The position numbers and the translations under genes were made by a program. Of a DNA stretch of 64,000 nt, positions 12,290-37,583 are shown one piece after another (the first letter of the stretch is position 1; every line of letters starts with the position of its first letter). The notes under the pieces are model-generated. The model ran no database searches. It saw only the letters and a list, made by a program, of their open reading frames with translations, and was not told the DNA's origin. The DNA is from Panopea generosa (lineage: Eukaryota; Mollusca; Bivalvia; Adapedonta; Hiatellidae): assembly GCA_029582155.1 (NCBI GenBank), contig CM055901.1:24895657-24959656 (forward strand), in the 5' to 3' direction.

Positions 12290-15200
12290 CTGGTAATTAA
12301 AATAAAACACCCAAAAATGTTTACTTAAGACATATACTAGTTTTTTTTGTGTATACATTAAATAGCAAAAGGTTAGGTCACAAGTAATCAAATATTGAAA
12401 TCGGCCCTCCTCAACAAATCATTCACACAAAACAATCAAGTTGGCGATAAGACATTGCTGTAGGAAGATAATGAAATAGTTTCATTGTTTTAATATACGT
12501 ATTCAATGCTGACCTCTAACGAGGAACTTCACTTTAACATAAGTAGTAAAATTTAATAAGATCAATTGTTCATCATCGTCTTTGAGTAAAGTTAATTTTT
12601 GAAATATGTTAAAGAATATTTTTGAAATACATATATATCACCTGTGAATGTTTTTTGAAGGAAAAGGAGAAACATGGTTTGCACCTTATGGATTGAATAT
12701 TTGCAAACAAACCAATATCCAAACCCAACATGAAACTTTGAATCTGCCACTGGTAATTAAATCTTTAGCTAAGCATATAAAAAAACAATATGTTATGCAG
12801 CATAAAAGAACGATTTCAGCGTAAGTCAATTGGCATGAGGCGCGCTTCTCCAAAATGTTAGAAATATTGCACAACATACGAAAAGTTGCTGAAAGCCAGT
12901 ATGGCCCATTTATGTCTGTTCACGTTTTAAGTGACCAGTATTCGAATTGTTTACACGGACAAATTGACCATACCTGTTTACGGGTTCTATCGTCATCCAT
13001 GTAAGCTTTAACCTGGCTAGAGGCCGGTATAGGGGCAGTTATAGGCACCGACCAGGTGGGATTCAACTGATTTGGTTTCGTCTGCGTCTCGCTGGTTGTA
13101 GACACACAACTGAAATGCCAGACAATAAAAATAATTATTCGTATCCGTCGCCATAATGATCGTAACTAAATTTGCAAACAATTAATCGGAACACTACAAT
13201 TGTAAATACTTCATATCGGTGCGTTCAATCAAGGACTTGTATAAAAAGATAGGAAACTTGTATCTCCTGATTAAATGTTGATAAAACAGCACACGAAGGA
13301 TTCGGCAAATTAATCATTCATAACTCACAGGCAACTGATTTCTTAACATGAACTGTAATTTGTATGTAATCTTAGATGTTTAAACATGTTTGATCATGCA
13401 AAACGATCTTGAATTAAAGATATTCAGGTTTGAAGGAAAATTTCTTGTAAATTGTCGTTAATTTAGCTGCAGTATACAAATTTTGTAATCAGATTCATTT
13501 CAACAATTTTAAACACAAATTGTTGGGAATGGTATTGTTTTGATGGGAATTTCATTCTGCAATGCAAGAATTTTGATTTGTGTTCCTGAGGTGAATGAAA
13601 GTTAAGATAATTAAAAAAAAGAGATATTGCAAGATTTTGCGTGAATATGCGAGCGTTCACAAACTGTCAATCAGTTGCATTTCCTTCTCGATATAATTCC
13701 TTGGTTCAATGTTCATTTGGATTAAATCTACCTGGAACATTTTGATCCTGACTCGGACTTGAACTTAAAAAAATAAAATACAATCCAAATAAAACCTTAT
13801 GATCAATACGTGTTCTACTTCGGAAACGGACATGACAATCGTTCTAATATAACAAAGTATAAACGAAGAAGCAAAGCTTTAATCAATATACCTTCCAGAT
13901 CTCATATCAGCTCTCCTGGTAGCCACGTGCCATATGATGGTCGATATCCACGTGTACGTGACCAGCATCACAGACACTGGAATCACGAGGATGATAGTCA
14001 ACATGTACGTCTCGTACACCTTACCAAACGTCGGCTTCTCCCCCCAGTACTTGTGACACCAATTAGCAGGTACTCTATCACCAACCGTGCGGTATTCCTG
14101 CAATACGATACAAGGATAATCGTACATTTGGTAAAGGGGAGTCTTACACTTGGTTGTGAAACGACTGATGTTTGGTCTTACACTTGGTTGTGGAACGACT
14201 GATGTTTGGTCTTACACTTGGTTGTGGAACGACTGATGTTTGGTCTTACATTTGGTTGTGGAACGACTGATGTTTGGTCTTACACTTGATTAAGAGATTA
14301 TTACACTTGGTGTTAAACATGACTGGAAGAAGTGTTACATATTGCAAACAGAAGTCTAGCGCTTGACTGGAAGAAGTGTTACATATTACAAATAGAAGTC
14401 TAGCGCTTGACTGGAAGAAGTGTTACTATTGCACTGTGATTTGTACTCACTATGATACATATAAACTGTTTTCCTGTGATCTGTACGCACTATGATACAT
14501 ATAAACTATTTGCCTGTGTTTTGTACTCACTATGGTACATATAAACTATTATACTCTGATTTGTACGCTCTGTGATACATATAAACTATTTTCCTGTGAT
14601 TTGTACGCACTGTGATACATATAAACTATTTTCCTATGGTTTGTACGCACTATGATACATATAAACTATTTGCCTGTGTTTTGTACTCACTATGGTACAT
14701 ATAAACTATTATACTCTGATTTGTACGCTCTGTGATACATATAAACTATTTGCCTGTGTTTTGTACTCACAAGGTACATATAAACTATTATACTCTGATT
14801 TGTACGCACTGTGATACATATAAACTATTTTCCTGTGATTTGTACTCACTGTGATACATATAAACTATTTTCCTGTGATTTGTACGCACTATGATACATA
14901 TAAACTATTTGCCTGTGTTTTGTACTCACTATGGTACATATAAACTATTATACTCTGATTTGTACGCACTGTGATACATATAAACTATTATACTCTGATT
15001 TGTACGCACTGTGATACATATAAACTATTATACTCTGATTTGTACGCTCTGTGATACATATAAACTATTATACTCTGATTTGTACGCACTGTGATACATA
15101 TAAACTATTATACTCTGATTTGTACGCACTGTGATACATATAAACTATTATACTCTGATTTGTACGCTCTGTGATACATATAAACTATTGCACTGTGATT

Positions 15201-21200: not shown

Positions 21201-24200
21201 ATGTTTAAGGATTAATATACACTCGTACAATAGATATGTCTAAGGTTTGAGTATGTTTAAGGATTGATATACACTCGTACAATAGGTATGTCTAAGGTTT
21301 GAGTATGTTTAAGAATTGATATACACTCGTACAATAGGTATGTCTAAGGTTTGACTTTGTTTAAGGATTGATATACACTCGTACAATAGGTTTGTCTAAG
21401 GTTTGAGTATGTTTAAGGATTGATATACACTCGTACAATAGGTATGTCTTAGGTTTGAGTATGTTTAAGGATTGATATACACTCGTACAATAGGTATGTC
21501 TAAGGTTTGGGTATGTTTAAGGATTGATATACACTCGTACAATAGGTATGTCTAAGGTTTGGGTATGTTTAAGGATTGATATACACTCGTACAATAGGTA
21601 TGTCTAAGGTTTGGGTATGTTTAAGGATGTCTGAGGGTTTATGTGCGCTCCACATATGGCTATTCCTATACACGCATGACTGCGTTGCCCCTAGGCGAAT
21701 AACTAGGGAATACATAAAGCTATAAAGATGGGTAACTTATGACACACGATTAAGAAGGACCTTATTTGAGTTGATGCCCCTGATATCACGATAAACGTAC
21801 TTGAGCCGTATTGTTCGACATACCATGTAAAATAGAGTATGTATAAGTTCACAATAGAGCATGTTTAAGGTACTTACAATACCGAAGATGATGGGTATGG
21901 CGGCAATAAATGACGTCACCCAGACTGATAATATGACAATACGTGCATGTCGGATGGTACACACTGACCGGGCCTTCAGCGGGTATCGAATGGCAACAAA
22001 TCTGAAAAAAAAAACCACCATATTATGATATTATGGCCGTAAAAATATTTACTTAGAAATTCCCTTAGAAGTTTGCCACTCATCGATGCAGGTTAATAGA
22101 GCAATAAACTAATTTGCTATAGACTTTGTAGATAAATTAAAACTTCTGTATCATATTACAGTTGGGCAGTTACAACTTCTGAAAAGTTAGGAACTGGAGA
22201 CGGTTTTGTTTTGATCTATTTGCAATGACATCATTTGTTATTATGTGTTATTTTGGTTTGTTTATAAAAAGTATAACAAAGAGACACAATGGAGCATATA
22301 GCACATTCCATGTGTGTCCTGCACATTTCATGTGTGTCCTACACACTCCATGTGTGTCCTACACTTTTCATGTGTGGCCTACACTTTCATGTGTGTCCTG
22401 CACATTCAATGTGTGTCCTACACATTTCATGTGTGTCCTGTAATGTGTGTCCTACACATTCCACGTGTGTCCTACACATTTCATGTGTGTCCTGTAATGT
22501 GTGTCCTACACATTTCATGTGTGTCCTGCACATTCCATGTGTGTCCTACACATTTCATGTGTGTCCAGTAATGTGTGTCATACACATTCCACGTGTGTCC
22601 TGCACATTCCATGTGTGTCCTACACATTTCATGTGTGTCCTGTAATGTGTGTCCTACACATTCCATGTGTGTCCTGCACATTCCATGTGTATCCTACACA
22701 TTTCATGTGTGTCCTGTAATGTGTGTCCTACACATTCCACGTGTGTCCTGCACATTCCATGTGTGTCCTACACTTTTCATGTGTGGCCTACACTTTCATG
22801 TGTGTCCTGCACATTCAATGTGTGTCCTACACATTTCATGTGTGTCCTGCACATTCCATGTGTGTCCTACACATTTCATGTGTGTCCTGTCATGTCTGTC
22901 CTACACATTCCATGTGTGTCCTGCACATTCCATGTTTGTCCTACACATTTCATGTGTGTCCTGTAATGTGTGTCCTGCACATTCCATGTGTGTCCTACAC
23001 ATGTTATGTGTGTCTGCACATTCCATGTGTGTCCTACACATTCCATGTGTGTCCTTCACATTCCATGTGTGTCCTACACATTCATTTATAAAATAAAGAC
23101 ATCTTAGAGATAACCGTGTATGTCAAACAGTAAACTGTGAAAACGTATGTAACGTTATGACTTCACTTAACACATTTTTATTCAAAAGAGAAGAGATATG
23201 TAAGAATTCGATGCAAAATGAACTTCCATCTAAAGATTACTTTTGGAAATACATCTGTCTGTATTATACAGCGTTATAAGTATATGTAGGGAAAGTTCAA
23301 ACATTTCCCTCATTTCTTTGATATATGTGATTTATTTTAGTAGTATAAAGCACACTTTTTTACAACAATAGTGTTGTTTTTAATTCCAAAGGGTATATCT
23401 GAAGATAGCCAGTCAGTATGAGTTACATTGCACTTTTCATTTAGATCCATTTATATATTTTGATTGAATCCTCTGTGTAATTATGCAATCAACCGATAAT
23501 TTATTTTGTAAATAATTTCAATTTCTTGTAAAATAAAAAAAAACTCTCAAATCTCTCTCACTCTCTAACGTGTGATGAGATTGTCGAATGTCTCTTTAAG
23601 ATGGACACATGTATACGTCGACTATATTTAAACGGTTTGTTGAGGAATGACCCGCCTCGAAACTCTTAACCCTATAACGGGTTGATAAACACATCTCTTC
23701 TTAAAGGGAATATATCAGTAAAAATCGCTACAAATGTCTAAAATAAAGATATTTTCAAACGGATAAAAAGCATTTCATTATCATTAATTAATAAAATGGT
23801 TGGTATGTCAAATCCACCATAAAAAAGTGTCAAATTTGATTTCTAAATTGGAGTGGTAAACTTGAAACGAAATCCCCTTTCTAAAAATAGACCGCACTAA
23901 AATATTGCTTGACGACCGTCACGTTTACATTCCAACTCTTTCTAAAATGAAACATTTTTATTTAGTGTAGACCTGTATCTATCCAGTTTCAAAATTTTAC
24001 TTTTTTTATATATTCCCTGTACTGAAAAAAAAGTATATTTTCGAAATAAATTGCTTTATATAATAGTGTCTTACGTAACGCCATAGTGCAAGACATCAGT
24101 TTGAACATTGGTAACTTTGAACTAACTTGGGAATATCTTTACCACCCACTCACGCCTGCCGAAAATGTCTTCCAGTGTCAATGTCCAACTCCAACTTTGA

Positions 24201-27200
24201 CAACAATGTCTACTAAACTTACGGTTCTGTTCTCCAGCAGTGTTCTCAAGCACTGTCTACTAAACTTACTGAACGGTTCTGTTCTCCAGCACTGTCTACT
24301 AAACTTACTGAACGGTTCTGTTCTCCAACAATGTCTGCTAAACTTACTGTACGGTTCTGTTCTCCAGAAGTGTCTACTAAACTTACTGAACGGTTCTGTT
24401 CTCCGGCAGTGTTCTCCAGCAGTGTCTACTAAACTTACTGAACTGTTCTGTTCTCCAGAACTGTTTACTAAACTTACTGAACGGTTCTGATCTCCAACAA
24501 TCTCTGCTAAACTTACTTAACGGTTCTGTTCTCCAGCAATGTCTACTAAACTTACTGATCCGTTCTGATCTCCGGCAGTGTCACCTCAACTACTGAACGG
24601 TTCTGTTCTCCGACAGTGTCTACTAAACTTACTGAACGGTTCTGTTCTCCAGCAGTGTTTAATTAACTTTACTGAACGGTTGTGTTCTCCAGCAGTGTAT
24701 ACTAAACTTACTAAACGATTCTGTTCTCCAGCAGTGTCTACTACACTTTCTGAACGGTTCTGTTCTCCAGCAGTGTCTACTTAACTTACCGAACGGTTCT
24801 GTTCTCCGGCAGTGTCTATTAAACTTACTGAATGGTTCTGTTCTCCAGCAGTGTCTACTAAATTTATTTAACGGTTCTGTTTTTCAGCAGTGTCTACTAA
24901 ACTTACTGAACGGTTCTGATCTCCGGCAGTATCACCTCAACTACTGAACGGTTGTGTTCTCCAGCAGTGTCTACTAAACTTACTGAACGGTTCTGTTCTC
25001 CAACAGTGTCTGCTAAACTTTACTGAACGGTTCTGTTCTCCAGCAGTGTCTACTAAACTTACTTAACGGTTCTGTTCTCCAGCAGTGTCTACTAAACTTT
25101 ACTAAACGGTTCTGTTCTCCAGCAGTGTCTACTAAACTTACTTAACGGTTCTATTCTCCAGCAGCGTCTACTTAACTTACTGAACTGTTCTGTTCTCCAG
25201 CAGTGTCTACAAAACTTACTGAACGGTACTGTTCTCCAGCAATGTCTACTAAACTTACTGAAGGTTTTGTTCTCCAGTTTTGTCTATTGAACTTACTGAA
25301 CGGTTCTGTTCTCAAGCAGTGTATACTAAACTTTACTGAACGGTTCTGTTCTCCGGCAGTGTCTACTAAACTTACTGAAGGTTCTGTTCTCCAGCAGTGT
25401 CTTACTCAACTAACTGAACGGTTCTGTTCTCCAGCAGTGTCAACTAAACTTACTGAACGATTCTGTTCCCCAGCAGTGTTTATTTAACTTATTGAACGGT
25501 TCTGTTCAGCATCTGTTTCTACTACACTTACTGAACGGTTCTGTTTTCCAGCAGTGTCTTACTAAACTTATTGAACGGTTCTGTTCTCCAGCAGTGTCTA
25601 CTAAACTTACTGAACGGTTGTGTTCTCCAGCAGTGTCTACTAAACTTACTGAACGGTTCTGTTCTCCAGCAATGTCTACTAAACTAACTGAACGGGTTTG
25701 TTCTTCAGCAGTGTCTTACACACTTACTGAACGGTTCTGTTCTCCAGCAATGTCTACTAAACTAACTGAACGGGTTTGTTCTCCAGCAGTGTCTACTAAA
25801 TTTTACTTAACGTTTCTGTTCTCCGGCAGTGTCTACTAAACTTGCTGAACGGTTCTGTTTTCAAGCAGTGTCTACTAAACCTACTGAACGGTTCTGTTTT
25901 CCAGCAGTGTCTACTAAACTTACTGAACGGTTCTGTTCTCCAGCAGTGTCTACTAAATTTTACTTAACGTTTCTGTTCTCCGGCAGTGTTTACTAAACTT
26001 GCTGAACGGTTCTGTTTTCAAGCAGTGTCTACTAAACCTACTGAACGGTTCTGTTCTCCAGCAGTGTCTACTAAACTTTACTGAATGGTTTTGTTCTCCG
26101 CCAGGGTCTACTAAACTTACTTAACGGTTCTGTTCTCCAATAGTGTTTACTAAACTTACTGAACGGTTCTGTTCTCCAGCAGTGTCTACTAAACTTTACT
26201 GAAGGTTCTGTTCTCCAGCAGTGTCTACTAAACTTACTGAACGATTCTGTTCCCCAGCAGTGTTTATTTAACTTATTGAACGGTTCTGTTCAGCATCTGT
26301 TTCTACTACACTTATTGAACGGTTCTGTTCTCCAGCAGTGTCTTACTTAACTTACTGAACGGTTCTGTTCTCCAGCAGTGTCTACTAAACTTACTGAACG
26401 GTTGTGTTCTCCAGCAGTGTCTACTAAACTTACTGAACGGTTCTGTTCTCCAGCAAGTCTACTAAACTAACTGAACGGGTTTGTTCTTCAGCAGTGTCTT
26501 ACACACTTACTGAACGGTTCTGTTCTCCAGTATCGTTTACTAAACTTTACTGGACGGTTCTGTTCTCCAGCAGTGTCTACTAAACTTTACTGAACGGTCC
26601 TGGTCTCCAGCAGTGTCTACTACACTTTCTGAACGGTTTTGTTCTCCAGCAGTGTCTACTAAATTTACTGAACGGTTCTGTTCTCCAGCAGTGTCTACTT
26701 AATTTACTGAACGGTTCTTTTTCCAGCAGTGTCTTACTAAACTTACTGAACGGTTCTGTTCTCCAGCAGTGTCTACTAAACTTACTGAACGGTTCTGTTC
26801 TCCAGCAGTGTCTACTAAACTTACTGAACGGTTCTGTTCTCCGGCAGTGTTCTCCAGCAGTGTCTATTAAACTTACTGAACTGTTCTGTTCTCCAGAACT
26901 GTTTACTAAACTTACTGAACGGTTCTGATCTCCAACAATCTCTGCTAAACTTACTTAACGGTTCTGTTCTCCAGCAATGTCTACTAAACTTACTGATCCG
27001 TTCTGATCTCCGGCAGTGTCACCTCAACTACTGAACGGTTCTGTTCTCCGACAGTGTCTACTAAACTTACTGAACGGTTCTGTTCTCCAGCAGTGTTTAC
27101 TAAACTTTACTGAACGGTTGTGTTCTCCAGCAGTGTATACTAAACTTACTAAACGGTTCTGTTCTCCAGCAGTGTCTACTACACTTTCTGAACGGTTCTG

Positions 27201-30200
27201 TTCTCCAGCAGTGTCTACTTAACTTACCGAACGGTTCTGTTCTCCGGCAGTGTCTATTAAACTTACTGAACGGGTTTGTTCTCCAGCAGTGTCTACTAAA
27301 TTTTACTGAACGTTTCTGTTCTCCGGCAGTGTCTACTTAACTTGCTGAACGGTTCTGTTTTCAAGCAGTGTCTACTAAACCTACTGAACGGTTCTGTTCT
27401 CCAGCAGTGTCTACTAAACTTACTGAACGGTTCTGTTCTCCAGCAGTGTCTACTAAATTTAACTTAACGTTTCTGTTCTCCGGCAGTGTCTACTAAACTT
27501 GCTGAACGGTTCTGTTTTCAAGCAGTGTCTACTAAACCTACTGAACGGTTCTGTTCTCCATCAGTGACTACTAAACTTTACTGAATGGTTTTGTTCTCCG
27601 CCAGGGTCTACTAAACTTACTTAACGGTTCTGTTCTCCAATAGTGTTTACTAAACTTACTGAACGGTTCTGTTCTCCAGCAGTGTCTACTAAACTTTACT
27701 GAAGGTTCTGTTCTCCAGCAGTGTCTACTAAACTTACTGAACGATTCTGTTCCCCAGCAGTGTTTATTGAACTTATTGAACGGTTCTGTTCAGCATCTGT
27801 TTCTACTACATTTATTGAACGGTTCTGTTCTCCAGCAGTGTCTTAATTAACTTACTGAACGGTTCTGTTCTCCAGCAGTGTCTACTAAACTTACTGAACG
27901 GTTGTGTTCTCCAGCAGTGTCTACTAAACTTACTGAACGGTTCTGTTCTCCAGCAATGTCTACTAAACTAACTGAACGGGTTTGTTCTTCAGCAGTGTCT
28001 TACGCACTTACTGAACGGTTCTGTTCTCCAGTATCGTTTACTAAACTTTACTAGACGGTTCTGTTCTCCAGCAGTGTCTACTAAACTCTACTGAACGGTC
28101 CTGGTCTCCAGCAGTGTCTACTACACTTTCTGAACGGTTTTGTTCTCCAGCAGTGTCTACTTAATTTACTGAACGGTTCTGTTTTCCAGCAGTGTCTTAC
28201 TAAACTTACTGAACGGTTTTGTTCTCCAACAGTGTCTACTAAACTTACTGAACGGTTCTGTTCTCCAGCAGTGTCTACTAAACTTACTGAACGGTTCTGT
28301 ACCTTTCTACACTCATCACCGTGAGCGTGAGGGCGGAACACACCATGGACACAGTCTGAATGTAGTTTACCACCTTGCACATCACCTCTCCCAATTTCCA
28401 CGTATACGAAAAGAAAGCTATACACTGAAAATAACCAAACAAATACCCATGTTTATATACAAATCCTATGCATTGATACAGGATGGGATTTAACTTCTCG
28501 TAAAGAAAGATAAGCTGCGTTTTTTTGTCAATATATTGCACATAATACAAGCAGGAATGTAAGATTAGGCCATAAAGCTACTTTAAAAGCTCAGTCATAT
28601 TGTTCTTATATATGTTTATGCGCACACGAGCGAAAATACGCGCTTGTAAACGTGCAACGTACATAAAACAAATTCGCTTACATAAAAGTTGCTGCACGTC
28701 ATTGTTAGATTGACAATATTAATGTTTCTCAAAAACAAATGTATAAAGGACATATATCTGATTGTATTGTAAATATGACATTAGAGATGTGAGATACTTT
28801 TAATTTCTCAATTTATCTCTGTTTTTTTTTTCTTGCTGTGTTTTTTTTTTACATTAAAGTGTTTTGTATAATTCATTGACTTGACTTAAAATTTAACATT
28901 CCTCGTTATATTGTTTACTCATGTCCAAACAACTTCCTTGCTAAACTTTATTAAAACGTCGCATTAAAATGGTCCTGCATGACTACCCAATCGTGAAACA
29001 ACGGGTATTTCCGTATCCTCCGTATAATACACTTGCGTAGCATAAAAGCCGAGGTGATCAGATTGCATAACTACCATGCATGGACAGGCGCTGACTACAA
29101 CATGACGTTATACTGAAATGATACAACAGTTTGTGGAAATTTCGGTTGATACTTATTATATATACCGATAATTTTCTCTCTGGTCCCGCAATTTCCATAA
29201 TAAATAATCTATGTAGATTTTTTTTGCAGTTAAATTATTTGAGCCATTGCTGATGTAGAATACTTTCTGTGAGGTCGCGTGAAGCATTTCGCGTGAAGTA
29301 TGGGAACGCTGCACGAGATGTATCATTCCCATCATATCTGAATCTATCAACGACAAAATGATTTTCCCAGAATTCAAAGCGAACTAGATTGAACCGTCCG
29401 ATGTTACAGCATTGACTACAGATGTTACGTATCAGGAATCTGGCAACGTGGGTTCTGCGAAGACTGCAGTCTGGCAAATTTCATTGATGAGTAAAATAAC
29501 AAAATCAGTATCCTTTTAGTAGGATGAATAGACAGGGAAGTTTAGTTTCTACTAATTTGTTTTTAGCTCGATTGCGATGAAAGCTCAAAGCTTATATAAA
29601 CCGCTCTCAAGTCCGCTTCCTGGGTAGAACCAGTACTGAGTGTTTGTTTCATGAGAGGCATCGGGTCGACCGTGGGATCGAACCTGCAACCTCAGGGAAG
29701 TTTGACAATAGTAATGATAGTGATAATAGTTATATTATAATAATATCATAATGTAATAGTAATAAAAATATAGTAGTAAAATAAATGAATTTACGAAAAT
29801 AAATATATATTAATTTAATTTCTTGCAGAGTTTTCATGAAATTTAAAATGTATATTTTTATGTAAAATTGTTATTATTATATTTTATTATTGCTTTAGAA
29901 CTACATTATGAAATCTGAACGCCGATTAATCAATAAAAAATTTACAGCTTCCTTTGTAGGTTTAACGACTATTTGTACAGGTATTTTAACACTACGAGTA
30001 CGTGGTCTTAAAGAAGCTGTATTTTTATACATATTTTTAAAAAAATGAACATTAAAATAAGGAAAATGCATTTTTAAAGAAGAAGAAACAAAAATTATTT
30101 ATAACAGCCATTATGCGACAACCCACGGAAGCATTTTCTTTTTCCAATTGTGGTGCTATGCCTTAAGGTTTATAACGCAGTGCTTTAGGCTGGCTTGTTA

Positions 30201-33200
30201 CAGAACCATACCTACTGCAATTAGCCAGCTTTAATACTTATACTGAATTACCTTTAAAGCACAGGTCTACTTTTAGTAAGTTTCGCTGTGGTGTTGCCCC
30301 AATATGAATTGACACCGGTAGATATGACAATCTCAAATTAGAAGATAGAAAATGTCCCTTTTGTAACACAGTTGAAGGTGAAAGTCATGTTACTTTAGAA
30401 TGTCATCTTTATAATGATCTAAGAAATATTTTATTTGAAAAAACGGCTGCAATTAATGATATTTTTTATAATTTGTCAAATGTTGATAAGACAGCATTCT
30501 TATTTTCTCACTCTTCTTTGATTCGTGTTTGTGCCAAAACCTGTTTTAATATATTACAAAGACGTGCATTTTACCTCTGTAAATAATGCATTTTTTGTTT
30601 TATATGTATAATGTTACCTTTTTATCAACTCCTACGTGTATGCTGCAAATCAGTTCTTTTCTGATCTGATCAGAGGGGATAATCGATTCTTTTAGATATT
30701 TTTTATATTGCGCAATAGTGCTTTTATTTTCTTATAAGAATTTTAAAACTTTCTTCATCTTAACACTTCTTTAATAAATCGATTGGCTGCATTACACATA
30801 GTCTTATTATGTTAATAGTTAATTGTAGTTTGCACTGTGTGATAGTCTCTTGTAATTCATATATTTGAATAGCTATGTACATATATTGTATGGTATTAAT
30901 GTTATTGTTATTGCGATGTACATAGATGGGATTGAAATAAAGATTAAATATATATACTAATACGTGTTTGAAACAACTGTCACAGTAATTAATTTCATTA
31001 ACGTATTGTGAAAAACTATACAAAAAAGAGTAAACAATTGAACGATGGATGGTTATCACACCCGCGTCATCTGCATGTTATAAGACTCACTTCTCTGAGT
31101 ATCGGTACACAGCACGTGCTTAGTGCCGGGTTCCCTTAATTGTCTATGTTATATATGCTAGTCTGAGGTTAAGCCAGTATCCAGGAAAATAAAACAAAAG
31201 TTTAAAGGAACTAAACACAGCCTGCCATATGATAAGACGTATAAAATAAATGCAGTTGGATGTAAACGTATGTCATACATATGCCGCCCCGAATGCACAG
31301 AAACAATAAACAATTTATACAAATTTATATATTTTGACTTCCAACTTATAATGAATACTTAGCATCAGACTTATATTTTCAGTTAATTAATAAACTTATA
31401 AATAACTAAGATAATTGTTAAATTGTATTAAACCAATATTTATTAACTTCTCTGATAAACTTATTTTCATGTTTTCATTGTTGTAATATTTGTGTTAGCT
31501 ATAAACGCGCAAAGAGCTGCTTTATGCCTAATAATATATTTGTTTGTTTGTATGTTCGCATTATCCCATCACCTATATTTATTTTATACTTTTTATTTCC
31601 CTTTGTTACAAGGCTGTGTCTGTTTTAAGACAACTGCATTATTGTTCACAAAGTGTGGTGTGAACATTATTTTAGCTCCATTTTTTCGAACCGTAACATT
31701 AAATAGATTTATACCTGAAGCGACCTTATATATTGTAAAGCTAACATTCCTAGTGATTTTCACAAAGGTTTTGATGTAAAATAAAGAATCATGTATAGCA
31801 ACTCATTAAAATGTAATGGAACAATAGTACCTTCATGACACGACATATTTGTTTTAATACAAAAGTACACACATGGACTTCTTAAATTAAAAACATTTAC
31901 GCGTATTTGCTTTCTGATGGCCCTGGTGACTGTCCGAATTTGGTGACTGTCCGACCTTACGAGGAGCAATTCCCACCCCGTTCCCGCCACCTATGCCCTC
32001 TCCCATCCCGAAACACACATTTTCCATTAGTGAACATTTGAACGAAACTTTTAGATCATACAAGGTTTATGAAATGGGTCTCAAGTTTTTAGGTGTTCCT
32101 GGGGGAAATCCCGCAAGTATCTCCATGAAACAATCAATTTTAATAAAATATTACTCTTCCCATAAAGTATATTAATGAATACAGCGGCGTATTGTTCTAA
32201 TGTTCGTGTTTCTTTAAACTGTCCCGTTAAATAAATAATGAATAACCGCATCTGCTGGTGTTTAGTAGTTCCTTTCACATTATGTATTTACAATTATGTT
32301 TGTGAGGACTGCCATCAAGTTGTTGATAAATAATCTTGAAATTTCGTGTTGTTTTTCGTTTGCAATTGACAAAAAGATTTGTTTTATCCTTCAAATCTAC
32401 ATAGTCGAGTTTGAAGAAGTGCTCGGAACTACACCGTGCGTATAAACTACGTGACATTTTTTTGCTTTCATGTCATAAATACTAAGTAATTACATTTAAA
32501 TGTTAATATAGAAAACATTGAGTTTTTGTCTTCAACTTAAGTTTACTACTTACTGTAATGAAAAGATTCAGTTTTATTTATTTAATTTGTTCTAAAACAC
32601 GGTTTATATTTTGTGATACGTAGTATTTCATATTTTAACTCGATTATCAAACTGATAATAGAAATGGGGACGATTGGCGACGTAGACGCGACGATGATGA
32701 TGATAATAAACATAAATGATATAAATATTCGTACATAAATAATAATAACAACAACAGGACTCATACCACTATTACAGATGAAGGAGGTAGAAATAAAACT
32801 TTAGTTCTCTTTTTCTTATTTTTTCCTTTTTTTCAGGGCTTTGTTCTGCAATGGTTTGTTTTTTGCTAGCATGAGTTGAATGATCAGTATTTTAGAAATC
32901 ACCACTAAAAATTTGATGCTGATACCAGCTTTATGGACAACTCTGTGTCATTTCAAATTGATGCTTCGAACCGCATCTAGAGCGAATGGTTGATATAGTA
33001 TTACTCTGTGAATTGATAGGTCTCACAAAAGCATTGCATTTAAAAACAAATTCTGGTCAAGATATGCTTTGTTTTTTTCCCTTTATAAACTATAATGTTA
33101 ATGCTGCTACTTCTATTACTTATGTTGCTGCTACTGCTACTTCTGTTGTTGATGCGTATGATGTGAAAGACAATGAATTACGTCGTTGTTTATCGAGATA

Positions 33201-36200: not shown

Positions 36201-37583
36201 TTGCCTGTTATTGTCGTAATTTAATAACTCTTCAATCAGTGTGTTTCTGCTTAGTTTCAAACTAGTTTGATAGGCGCCGGCAGTTACAATTAATATCATT
36301 TACAATAATTTGTATATATAACAATCACAGAGGCGATAATCTTTGCCTATTTTTTTAAATCTTATATTTCGTCTTTGTCTGTACATTTTAGTAAAGCAAT
36401 AAAAGTGTCATCAGGTAGGTCATAAGGTAACTGTTATGTTTGTGCTCACCAGTTGTTTTATTTTTTAAACTCAAATGTACGGATTTTTTCTCTAGGGCTG
36501 GTAGACAAGGATCTGACATTACAGCTTCATAAGATATGTATATGTATGTTCTAGCTTTTTACATGTTTTCAAGTCTTTAAGAAAGGATGGGTACATATAC
36601 TGATCTGGAATAAGCATCTTTTCAAACCGCCAGAGGTTGCGAGTTCGATCCCCAGCTCGACCCGATGCCTCTCATAAAACAATACTCAGTACTGGTACTA
36701 CACAGGAAGCGGACTCTAGAGCGGTTCATATAAGCTCTGAGCTTTCATCGCAATCGAGCTAAAATAGATCAGTATAAACTAAAAATACAAATATACCTTA
36801 AAGTGTTGTTTTTTTTTTACAATTTATTGCAATAAAAGCAAATACAGACATAATTTTAGCTTTGCTTAAATTACAAACTTTAAAAAAATAGTTTTTGTTT
36901 AACGTGTATGATATAAACATTAAAATAAAGAAGCAACATATGTAACTGTATGGTATACGCACAGTGAATCAACCTCAGTTTTACAGCTTACCAACATCTA
37001 CAGTTACTATGACGCAAACATAAAGGAAGATTATAGGCTCATTCTCCATGTACAAAATACAACCTTTCATATATACAGAAAGAAAACACGCATCAACAAA
37101 TAAATATGAAGAATGAACCTTGAACATTGATACCAACAGAACTGCAGATTTTCTATAGATACCACGCATATCCAATACTCATCTTGCCGTCTCTTGTGAC
37201 ATACATGTACATGCGCTTCAATGGTCCTTATCTTACCTGACCTAACCTGTGACCCCGGAACACACCGGAGTTGATAATTAAACATTAGAATGACCTACCT
37301 TAATGGGAACGCAGACGACAACCAGCAGCAGGTCTGCAGACGCCAAACTTAGCAGAAACAGGTTCGTGATACTCCGCATACGCTGTCCCCGAGATATTGC
37401 GAATATAACTAACAGATTGCCAACGAGTCCGAGCAGGCCAATAAGACTATAAATGGTTGCCACAGGAACGAATTCCTTTAATGGCAAAGTATCATCAATC
37501 TCATATTCGTACGTAAAGTTACCATAATAATAATAATCATACTCGTGCGTCACGTGCTCGTACGCATTTGTTTCGTTCGACAT
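11825..37583 (-). CDS. Class A neuropeptide-type GPCR, six coding exons
   Basis: A plasma-membrane G-protein-coupled receptor, probably for a neuropeptide. The CDS joins 37583-37299, 28424-28303, 22001-21878, 14097-13892, 13109-12974 and 12289-11825 (1338 nt, 445 aa plus stop). All junctions are GT-AG and phase-consistent (0,2,0,2,0). Residue landmarks: N-glycosylation sequons at N3 and N22 in a Tyr/acid-rich N-terminus; TM1 with G55-N56; TM2 with D84; TM3 Cys C111; ERF at 135-137; TM4 W163; ECL2 Cys C191; TM5 P217 and Y225; a roughly 60-residue ICL3; TM6 CWTP at 306-309; TM7 NPFVY at 348-352; helix 8 followed by Cys 368/370, possibly palmitoylated; and a Ser/Thr-rich tail. Length is normal for the family. 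The TM6-TM7 pattern and ERF-x-AI-x-x-P resemble protostome trissin-, elevenin- and CCK/QRFP-type peptide receptors. I cannot choose among them without a tree, so no symbol is given. No intact neighbouring gene is visible. Confidence 0.93.
12974..13109 (-). CDS. GPCR coding exon 5 (third intracellular loop)
   Basis: This exon completes S246 and encodes residues 247-291. The acceptor is GGCATTTCAG before T. It encodes a hydrophilic loop rich in Thr, Ser and Pro, then the basic segment DDDRTRKQ entering TM6. The donor is CAG/GTATGG (phase 0). It lacks membrane segments, so its assignment rests on phase, boundary signals and the continuity of RTRKQ with the TM6 exon. Confidence 0.85.
13414..13704 (+). 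repeat. Dispersed repeat family A, copy 2, in GPCR intron 4
   Basis: Second copy of the element at 3784-4070, same orientation, ending at a shared TATAATTCCTTG. It occupies over a third of the 782-bp intron between exons 4 and 5, antisense to the gene. Confidence 0.85.
13892..14097 (-). CDS. GPCR coding exon 4 (ECL2, TM5)
   Basis: This exon encodes residues 178-245 plus two bases of S246. The acceptor ATCGTATTGCAG precedes GAA (phase 0). ECL2 carries NWCHKYW, whose C191 would pair with C111. TM5 runs about 206-228 with P217 and Y225. The exon ends RRADMRSG with donor GGAAG/GTATAT (phase 2). A 34-bp tandem array begins about 43 nt upstream of the acceptor. Confidence 0.92.
14140..14296. repeat. 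34-bp tandem repeat, about 4 copies
   Basis: Unit core GGTTGTGGAACGACTGATGT plus TTGGTCTTACACTT, in GPCR intron 3. Its edge lies about 43 nt from the exon 4 acceptor, so it may supply branch-point sequence. Confidence 0.9.
14321..14426. repeat. 44-bp tandem repeat, about 2.5 copies
   Basis: Unit core GACTGGAAGAAGTGTTACAT plus a GCAAACAGAAGTCTAGCGCTT-type remainder, sandwiched between the 34-bp and 40-bp arrays in intron 3. Confidence 0.85.
14427..16390. repeat. 40-bp minisatellite, about 49 copies, intron 3
   Basis: Unit core TGATACATATAAACTATTTT followed by CCTGTGATTTGTACGCACTG. Variants differ mainly after CTATT (ATACTC, TTCCTG, GCACTG, TGCCTG) and in GCACT/GCTCT/TCACT. Variants are grouped in blocks (for example successive ATACTC units near 14950-15180), consistent with local duplication. 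Each unit contains TATAAA on the plus strand. Confidence 0.96.
16391..19734. other. Non-repetitive part of GPCR intron 3
   Basis: AT-rich and without recognisable exons. The only structured piece is a hairpin-bearing segment at 17107-17185 (GACTCCA/TGGAGTC arms, then GCTGTATGAG/CTCATACAGC arms), perhaps a short dispersed element. Confidence 0.5.
19744..19988 (-). mobile_element. tRNA-derived SINE, family 3, intact with target-site duplication
   Basis: Read on the minus strand, the element opens GTCCTCCGTAGCTGAGTGGT, an excellent tRNA Leu/Ser-type A box. It continues through a long variable-arm-like segment to the perfect B box GGTTCGAGTCC. The body ends TATGCCATATATAAC... GGCGTTAAACCC. The direct repeat GATCTAGAT flanks it at 19735-19743 and 19989-19997. 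It lies in GPCR intron 3, sense to the gene. A relative at 58937-59085 adjoins the 84-bp satellite. Confidence 0.92.
20417..20515. repeat. 11-12-bp tandem repeat
   Basis: About eight units of CGGATTCCACT / CGGATTCCCACT in GPCR intron 3, more GC-rich than its surroundings. Confidence 0.85.
20529..21640. repeat. Compound 88-bp / 52-bp minisatellite, intron 3
   Basis: The left part (to about 21170) repeats every 88-89 bp as a composite of TTAAGGGTTGATATACACAC and TAAGGGTTTATGTACACATG subunits. The right part (about 21200-21620) is a 52-bp unit with TTAAGGATTGATATACACTC and GTCTAAGGTTTGAGTATG. The two share subunits, so one probably arose from the other. Confidence 0.93.
21878..22001 (-). CDS. 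GPCR coding exon 3 (ICL2, TM4)
   Basis: This exon completes R136 and encodes residues 137-177. The acceptor is a pure T tract followed by CAG. It starts FVAIRYPLKAR, which with the preceding exon gives ERFVAIRYP, the family's DRY-region motif. TM4 contains W163 (SVWVTS) and ends near P172. The donor is ATT/GTAAGT (phase 0). Confidence 0.92.
22301..23083. repeat. 20-bp minisatellite, about 40 copies, intron 2
   Basis: Unit CACATTCCATGTGTGTCCTG / CACATTTCATGTGTGTCCTA, interspersed with 14-bp short units TAATGTGTGTCCTA. The core is a near-palindrome (ACACATTCCATGTGT). Larger blocks are duplicated (22340-22440 recurs near 22765-22850). Open frames reading CVLHISCVSYTFHVCP-like protein are artefacts of the period. 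Confidence 0.95.
23084..24204. other. Non-repetitive part of GPCR intron 2
   Basis: AT-rich spacer between the 20-bp and 39-bp arrays. No exon, RNA gene or transposon recognised. Confidence 0.5.
24205..28300. repeat. 39-bp minisatellite, about 105 copies, intron 2
   Basis: Unit ACTGAACGGTTCTGTTCTCC plus AGCAGTGTCTACTAAACTT. It is the largest array in the window and contains higher-order duplications: the block at about 24400-24830 recurs at about 26840-27270, and distinctive units at 25458, 26243 and 27743 mark repeated blocks. On the GPCR strand most units carry TTCAGTAAGT, a 5'-splice-site-like motif. The right edge lies within intron 2 at donor position +3. Confidence 0.97.
28303..28424 (-). 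CDS. GPCR coding exon 2 (ECL1, TM3)
   Basis: This exon encodes residues 96-135 plus two bases of R136. The acceptor TATTTTCAG precedes TGT (phase 0). It contains ECL1 with YTWKLGE, the conserved TM3 Cys in VMCK (C111) and the end of TM3, TVMSVER. The donor is GAAAG/GTACAG (phase 2). From intron base +3 onward the sequence is already unit sequence of the 39-bp minisatellite. That puts a second, better-matching donor (GTAAGT) 15 nt further on, in the same phase. Confidence 0.92.
28425..29540. other. 3' part of GPCR intron 1
   Basis: AT-rich spacer. Open frames at 29156-29477 have no recognisable domain or splice support. Confidence 0.45.
29541..29695 (-). mobile_element. SINE family 1, truncated copy
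   Basis: Inverted copy with the body markers TTTAGCTCGATTGCGATGAA, AGCTTATATAAACCGCTCTC and AGAACCAGTACTGAGTGTTT, ending in a B-box remnant GGGATCGAACCTGC. The head beyond the B box is missing. It lies in GPCR intron 1. Confidence 0.8.
30235..30945 (+). pseudogene. Non-LTR retrotransposon 3' end, decayed
   Basis: Frame 30209-30593 reads as the C-terminal Cys/His domain of a LINE reverse transcriptase: STFSKFRCGVAPI, an in-frame TGA, then IDTGRYDNLKLEDRKCPFCN (a Cys-x2-Cys knuckle), HVTLECHLYNDLR and a stop after RRAFYLCK near 30590. The following 350 bp to TGAAATAAAGATTAAATA (about 30945) resembles a LINE 3' UTR. It is heavily 5' truncated, as usual for such copies, and sits in GPCR intron 1. 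The clade is not assigned. Confidence 0.85.
30946..33596. other. Intron 1 sequence without recognised genes
   Basis: AT-rich. Open frames at 31492-31779, 31760-31990 and 32986-33225 show low-complexity, hydrophobic or unsupported products. The stretch 32755-33085 is a dispersed repeat, listed separately. Confidence 0.45.
32755..33085 (+). repeat. Dispersed repeat family B, copy 1
   Basis: Diverged copy of 51488-51830. Shared anchors in order are GGACTCA...CACTATTA, a T/C tract ending TTTTTTTCAGG, ATGCTGATACCA, GACAA.TCTGT.TC, CTCTG.AAATTGA.GG and TCTGGTCAAG. No coding frame is shared, so the class is unknown. Confidence 0.6.
33597..33735 (+). mobile_element. SINE family 1, degraded copy
   Basis: Recognisable through GCCTCTCAAAAACA, TTGGTTCTACCCAAGAACAG, CATATATGTCGCAATGAA and TAGTACAAACTAAACT in the order of the intact copy at 5145-5337. 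The head is lost. Confidence 0.65.
33736..36599. other. Intron 1 sequence without recognised genes
   Basis: AT-rich. Three copies of a 22-bp GGAACATCGATTTTACATTT-type repeat lie at about 35471-35540. A 21-nt segment at 34645-34665 is the exact reverse complement of 30708-30728 in the LINE tail. Nothing coding is seen. Confidence 0.45.
36600..36785 (+). mobile_element. SINE family 1, copy with degraded A box
   Basis: B box GAGTTCGATCCCC, then ACCCGATGCCTCTCATAAAA, CAGTACTGGTACTACACAGG and ATATAAGCTCTGAGCTTTCA, very close to the 5145-5337 copy. The 5' half of the head is not recognisable. Confidence 0.82.
37299..37583 (-). CDS. GPCR coding exon 1 (N-terminus, TM1, TM2)
   Basis: This exon encodes residues 1-95. 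The ATG at 37583-37581 is the only Met codon in frame, with an in-frame TGA a few codons upstream. The adjoining TTG-initiated reading further upstream is not a eukaryotic start. The product begins MSNETNAYEH, continues through a YYYY stretch, then TM1 (about 38-63, LVGNLLV) and TM2 (about 73-95, LASADLLLVVV). The exon ends AAG before donor GTAGGT (phase 0). Any 5' UTR exons lie at higher coordinates and cannot be placed. Confidence 0.93.

Follow-up and report, generated by a model that had tools for sequence, protein, structure and literature searches.

The receptor gene and the array behind its second exon

The window, a 64,000-nucleotide stretch of Panopea generosa DNA, carries on its minus strand a gene for a rhodopsin-type G-protein-coupled receptor (GPCR) with six coding exons, encoding a protein of 445 residues in a frame that is intact across all of the joins. 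The protein matches Pfam 7tm_1 (PF00001) with an E value of 3.2e-61 over residues 55–352, corresponding to positions 1–260 of the 260-position profile, such that the domain covers the whole receptor and places it in class A. Among receptors with solved structures the best match is orexin 2 (7.5e-45), followed by the CCK and galanin receptors, a ranking by similarity and not by a tree. The coding exons, the two splice donors behind exon 2 and the minisatellite that adjoins them are as follows.

37299..37583, minus strand: coding exon 1, from the start codon, with donor AAG/GTAGGT (open frame and splice signals)
28303..28424, minus strand: coding exon 2, ending GTAGAAAG in phase 2, within the codon for the ERF arginine (paralogs have homologous exon ends)
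28297..28305, minus strand: native donor AAG/GTACAG (gap-free alignment to a solved receptor across ERF/VAI)
28282..28290, minus strand: repeat-derived second donor TCA/GTAAGT, 15 nt downstream and in frame
24241..28300, minus strand: 39-bp minisatellite, 103.1 copies (Tandem Repeats Finder)
21878..22001, minus strand: coding exon 3, with acceptor junction TTTCAG/ATTTGTTGCC, where the arginine codon is completed
13892..14097, minus strand: coding exon 4
12974..13109, minus strand: coding exon 5, third intracellular loop
11825..12289, minus strand: coding exon 6, to the stop codon

The ERF motif occupies residues 135–137 with its arginine at position 136 (R136), and the phase-2 intron behind exon 2 follows the AG of this arginine codon. 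Introns that split the codon for the DRY arginine are described as recurring among class A GPCRs, with ancient origin versus repeated gain being debated (PMC3151243). Compared with the introns described there, the intron of the focal gene lies at the same position and has the same AG before it, and only the adjoining array is particular to it.

Alignment of 104 units of the 39-bp minisatellite gives a consensus on the transcribed strand of ACAGAACCGTTCAGTAAGTTTAGTAGACACTGCTGGAGA. The exact hexamer GTAAGT is present 56 times on the transcribed strand of the array and not at all on the other, and is held by 69 of the 104 units when indels are allowed in the unit alignment. The repeat is nearly private to this locus: a 26-nt core of the unit has 66 matches (with up to three mismatches) in the 1.47-Gb genome, 65 of which are in this array, and as to a wider source of the unit in that genome, there is only one match outside the array, with three mismatches, on C3. 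Minisatellites in general are common here, making up 37% of the window (from a hand-merged list) and 9.4% of a sample of 42 loci (178,350 bases), the latter being a rough figure in that the sample was drawn around GPCR genes and contains some overlap between loci.

Several minor features of the window were also noted. Between a 34-bp minisatellite (14141–14288) and the exon 4 acceptor downstream of it lie 43 nt. On the plus strand the 39-bp unit (24241–28300) looks acceptor-like (TACTAAACTTACTGAACGGTTCTGTTCTCCAG), having a stretch that resembles a branch point as well as a run of pyrimidines ahead of CAG, and the plus strand of intron 1 (30308–30586) contains a 92-residue open frame that by eye resembles the end of a reverse transcriptase protein of the LINE type. 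A scan for bacterial promoters and terminators found nothing, and has no bearing on the GPCR gene.

Two donors and their relative strength

A first-pass annotation of this DNA had placed the exon 2 donor at GAAAG/GTACAG, with repeat sequence beginning at intron position +3 and a second donor, TTCA/GTAAGT, 15 nt past the native one. These positions hold: the last exon base is 28303 and the intron begins with GTACAG at 28302, the edge of the Tandem Repeats Finder array is at 28300, and use of the second donor would make 28288 the last exon base. We take the first donor to be productive, because the receptor it gives aligns without gaps to the solved orexin receptor across the junction (ERF/VAI) and matches the paralogs described below. 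The second GT is a whole number of codons downstream and is reached without a stop, forming an in-frame tandem alternative 5′ splice site, and use of the second donor would, as had been predicted, insert YRTVQ after R136, with TAA as the following codon. That only the donor of the first unit can give a full-length receptor is likewise borne out, as the first in-frame stop starts at intron nucleotide 17; every donor beyond intron nucleotide 19 takes in an in-frame TAA, and five further GTAAGT sites that were checked individually each read through it.

The statement that the second donor is the better match to the consensus stands in part. It is the better of the two at positions +3 to +6 and the worse at −3 to −1 (TCA versus AAG), and which donor ranks higher overall varies with the measure. 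A consensus matrix of donor frequencies scores the second donor at 5.45 and the native donor at 4.10, a difference of +1.35 bits, U1 pairing is about equal (−5.6 kcal/mol for the second donor and −5.7 for the native), and a matrix derived from donors of the same genome favours the native donor (4.86 versus 1.84). The own-genome matrix was built from 18 hand-read donors, namely the four others of the focal gene, ten at the DRY position and four in the third intracellular loop. Of 14 genomic stretches taken for this purpose, L043 was left out (no readable donor in the match), and L035 and L036 were inspected and likewise not included; the matrix is small and scored its own training members, and it leans against the second donor because it is self-trained and because the exon side of DRY sites is constrained by coding. 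With the three measures in disagreement, the superiority of the repeat-derived donor is not established.

The U1 5′ end used for pairing is canonical in this genome, as the single U1 gene that was read begins AUACUUACCUG. At least 42 U1 snRNA matches are present in the genome, and 41 are above the cut-off; among the 42 listed, 19 are lined up with a spacing of about 2 kb at G000:C2:1137285-1176714, and nine more are at C5:44282540-44303106.

The native donor comes out as weak by all three measures, being the lowest of 19 with the own-genome matrix, second lowest of 19 with the consensus matrix and joint lowest of 18 in U1 pairing. Dozens of intact GTAAGT copies follow it, and real competition between donors is plausible. 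One explanation makes the array a field of decoys, in which U1 bound at +15, +54, +93 and beyond would compete with the native donor, such that some transcripts carry the stop and are degraded and receptor output drops in an array-dependent manner. A weak native donor, 56 exact GTAAGT copies, a canonical U1 5′ end (AUACUUACCUG) and the in-frame TAA included by all donors beyond intron nucleotide 19 are each consistent with such a field of decoys. However, four sites within exon 2 outscore the native donor with the consensus matrix, and of the two that were paired with U1, GAG/GTGATG (−8.1 kcal/mol) binds better than the native donor and ATG/GTGTGT (−4.7 kcal/mol) binds worse. Because sites internal to exon 2 outscore or outpair the native donor, site scores alone do not settle which donor is used, and we consider the decoy explanation unlikely.

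The five-residue YRTVQ insert would lengthen the junction between TM3 and loop 2, presumably with a loss of coupling. The description of this position as critical for G-protein coupling is a fair one, in that mis-splicing at the same junction in Drosophila Tre1 is reported to impair the receptor severely: the scattershot allele of tre1 carries an acceptor mutation through which eight residues are lost including the arginine, and the arginine is itself essential (PMC2911388). The two cases are alike in that splicing is altered at the same protein junction, with an in-frame length change of a few residues. Unlike scattershot as it is described, which is a mutant, the donor here is natural, and would potentially add five residues and keep the arginine. 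Because the arginine stays in the insert form, that the insert disables rather than tunes the receptor is something we only infer.

Paralogs, turnover of the array and chance

The contig also carries three close paralogs in which exon 2 stops at the base where it stops in the focal gene, the junctions being GAGAG/GTTTGT (paralog A), GAAAG/GTAAGA (B) and GAAAG/GTATAG (C), and seven further matches, judged by sequence, appear to share the DRY-codon intron. No in-frame second donor of native strength is present within 60 nt of exon 2 in paralogs A, B and C, and we rejected a second donor conserved across the paralogs for this reason. The minisatellites nearest to exon 2 of paralog A (at least three copies, in the stretch read) are approximately 1.9 kb upstream and 4.5 kb downstream, and the stretches read for paralogs C (8 kb) and B (1,251 bases) show no minisatellite.

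Elsewhere in the genome, ten matches to the GPCR query are clustered at G000:C18:15488611-16079015, with open frames of 355–366 residues (eight of them 361 residues) and no internal stops. Two loci 0.64 Mb apart, L012 and L013 (G000:C19:2567148 and 3207990), each contain a GPCR-like open frame and share the set of minisatellites around it, as a recent duplication would leave them.

Within the array the conservation of the GTAAGT window is 0.933, compared with a mean of 0.923, and ranks 12th of the 39 windows in the unit. No selection on GTAAGT was seen across the 104 units, and with this rank there is no hint that the donor is kept by selection. U1 sites can protect introns from premature polyadenylation (telescripting), and the many U1 sites of the array might shield the 6.3-kb intron in this manner; the confinement of all 56 exact GTAAGT copies to the transcribed strand would suit this role. 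We nevertheless regard it as extremely unlikely, as the hexamer is without sign of selection, and, among the paralogs, A lacks minisatellites of at least three copies within approximately 1.9 kb of exon 2, while C and B show none in the 8 kb and 1.25 kb read, respectively.

A further explanation is that the animal makes use of a second receptor isoform, regularly produced from the +15 donor and altered in its coupling loop. The donor is in frame and free of stops, belongs to the only usable unit, and is preferred by the consensus matrix, but there is no such donor of native strength within 60 nt in the three close paralogs, the hexamer is conserved no more than the rest of the unit, and the repeat is confined to this locus apart from the single three-mismatch match. 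Together with the severe impairment reported for damage to the same junction in Drosophila Tre1 (PMC2911388), these observations make a functional isoform very unlikely.

The five top-scoring internal duplications of the array are blocks of 240–850 bp with 96.6–98.0% identity. Identity to inner units reaches 98% in those that adjoin exon 2, which indicates that turnover extends to the very edge of the array, at the exon. Assembly might have miscopied blocks so nearly identical, leaving the edge at the exon as an artefact, but the window contains no N and the contig, 76.7 Mb long, continues from the edge unit into an intact coding exon, and we find an artefact exceedingly improbable. Highly unlikely too is a polymorphic minisatellite serving as a splicing rheostat on a neuropeptide receptor, in which the first unit would regularly send part of the transcripts into a coupling-altered isoform, later units would consign others to decay, and turnover of the array would vary the receptor output between individuals.

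The chance of obtaining a second donor was estimated from 20,000 trials in which random non-array sequence continues behind GTACAG, using the consensus matrix and with the junction codon checked. An in-frame, stop-free donor of at least native strength occurs within 60 nt in 6.8% of the trials and within 15 nt in 4.1%, and a donor as strong as the observed +15 site occurs within 60 nt in 3.7%. When the real unit is placed in all 39 phases, the first unit offers a GTAAGT that is in frame and stop-free in six of them. Second in-frame donors of at least native strength are present in two of the 19 introns of the focal gene and its relatives (with the junction codon checked in the focal intron only), the two being the focal one and, within the same gene, intron 3. 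The intron 3 site is ATG/GTATGT at +54 (21824 region of the window, minus strand), in frame and stop-free, and scores 7.48 versus 6.92 for its native donor; it falls outside the Tandem Repeats Finder arrays.

Under random placement of the four intronic array blocks, the probability of an array within 2 nt of a splice junction is 0.0045, with the 2-nt threshold having been set after seeing the case. The distance from array to splice site is thus rarer than the presence of a second in-frame donor. A growing array that is halted by selection at the GT would explain the 2-nt distance.

A proposed origin and its relation to known systems

The sequence feature is real, and its interpretation is unproven. 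We think it probable that a minisatellite of the ordinary kind expanded until it met a constrained donor, with the native donor making the receptor and the +15 donor being seldom used or a source of low-level noise. Local tandem duplication would have made an intronic minisatellite that is almost private to this locus, and the array would then have grown up to the second base of the phase-2 intron in the ERF (DRY-type) arginine codon of an intact neuropeptide-type GPCR, where selection on the exon and its GT presumably halts it. The unit may carry GTAAGT on the transcribed strand simply by chance, with the phase of the first unit setting one copy in frame at +15. Splicing at the native donor would yield the receptor, and the +15 donor would be used seldom or as low-level splicing noise, its product with YRTVQ after R136 probably being a poorly coupled receptor.

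This origin is favoured by the exact anatomy, the gap-free orexin receptor alignment, the exon ends of the paralogs, the near-private unit, the unexceptional conservation of the hexamer, the turnover up to the exon, the equal U1 pairing and the commonness of minisatellites here. The weak native donor, the +1.35 bits of the second donor with the consensus matrix, the dozens of intact copies behind it and the value of 0.0045 for the array edge count against it. If the second donor is used, then neutral growth of a repeat against an exon can install a switch at the motif with which a receptor contacts its G protein; if it is unused, the locus is a natural test of splicing that ignores dozens of near-consensus donors right behind a weak real one.

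The minisatellite of human IFI6 is said to sit at an exon-intron boundary. The array described here reaches such a boundary too, and its units carry donor-like sequence in the transcribed orientation. In IFI6 the minisatellite repeats are described as acting as alternative splice donors, with three mRNA species reported (PMC4526556, a citing paper), and this is the closest precedent, the likeness being minisatellite units with a donor sequence that is used to give isoforms in IFI6 and is predicted here. The focal case differs from IFI6 in that the gene encodes a GPCR, the donors are candidates, and only the first unit is usable, as TAA follows. It would be a further member beside IFI6 if the +15 donor is used.

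Other repeats have been connected with splicing in different ways. The VNTR in intron 6 of TERT, with a 38-bp unit, influences splicing, reportedly through G-quadruplexes acting at a distance (PMC11830802); both it and the focal array are intronic and have units of similar length, but the TERT repeat, in the account given there, supplies no donors. A minisatellite of C. elegans is described as enriched near multiple splicing choices (PMC4039745).
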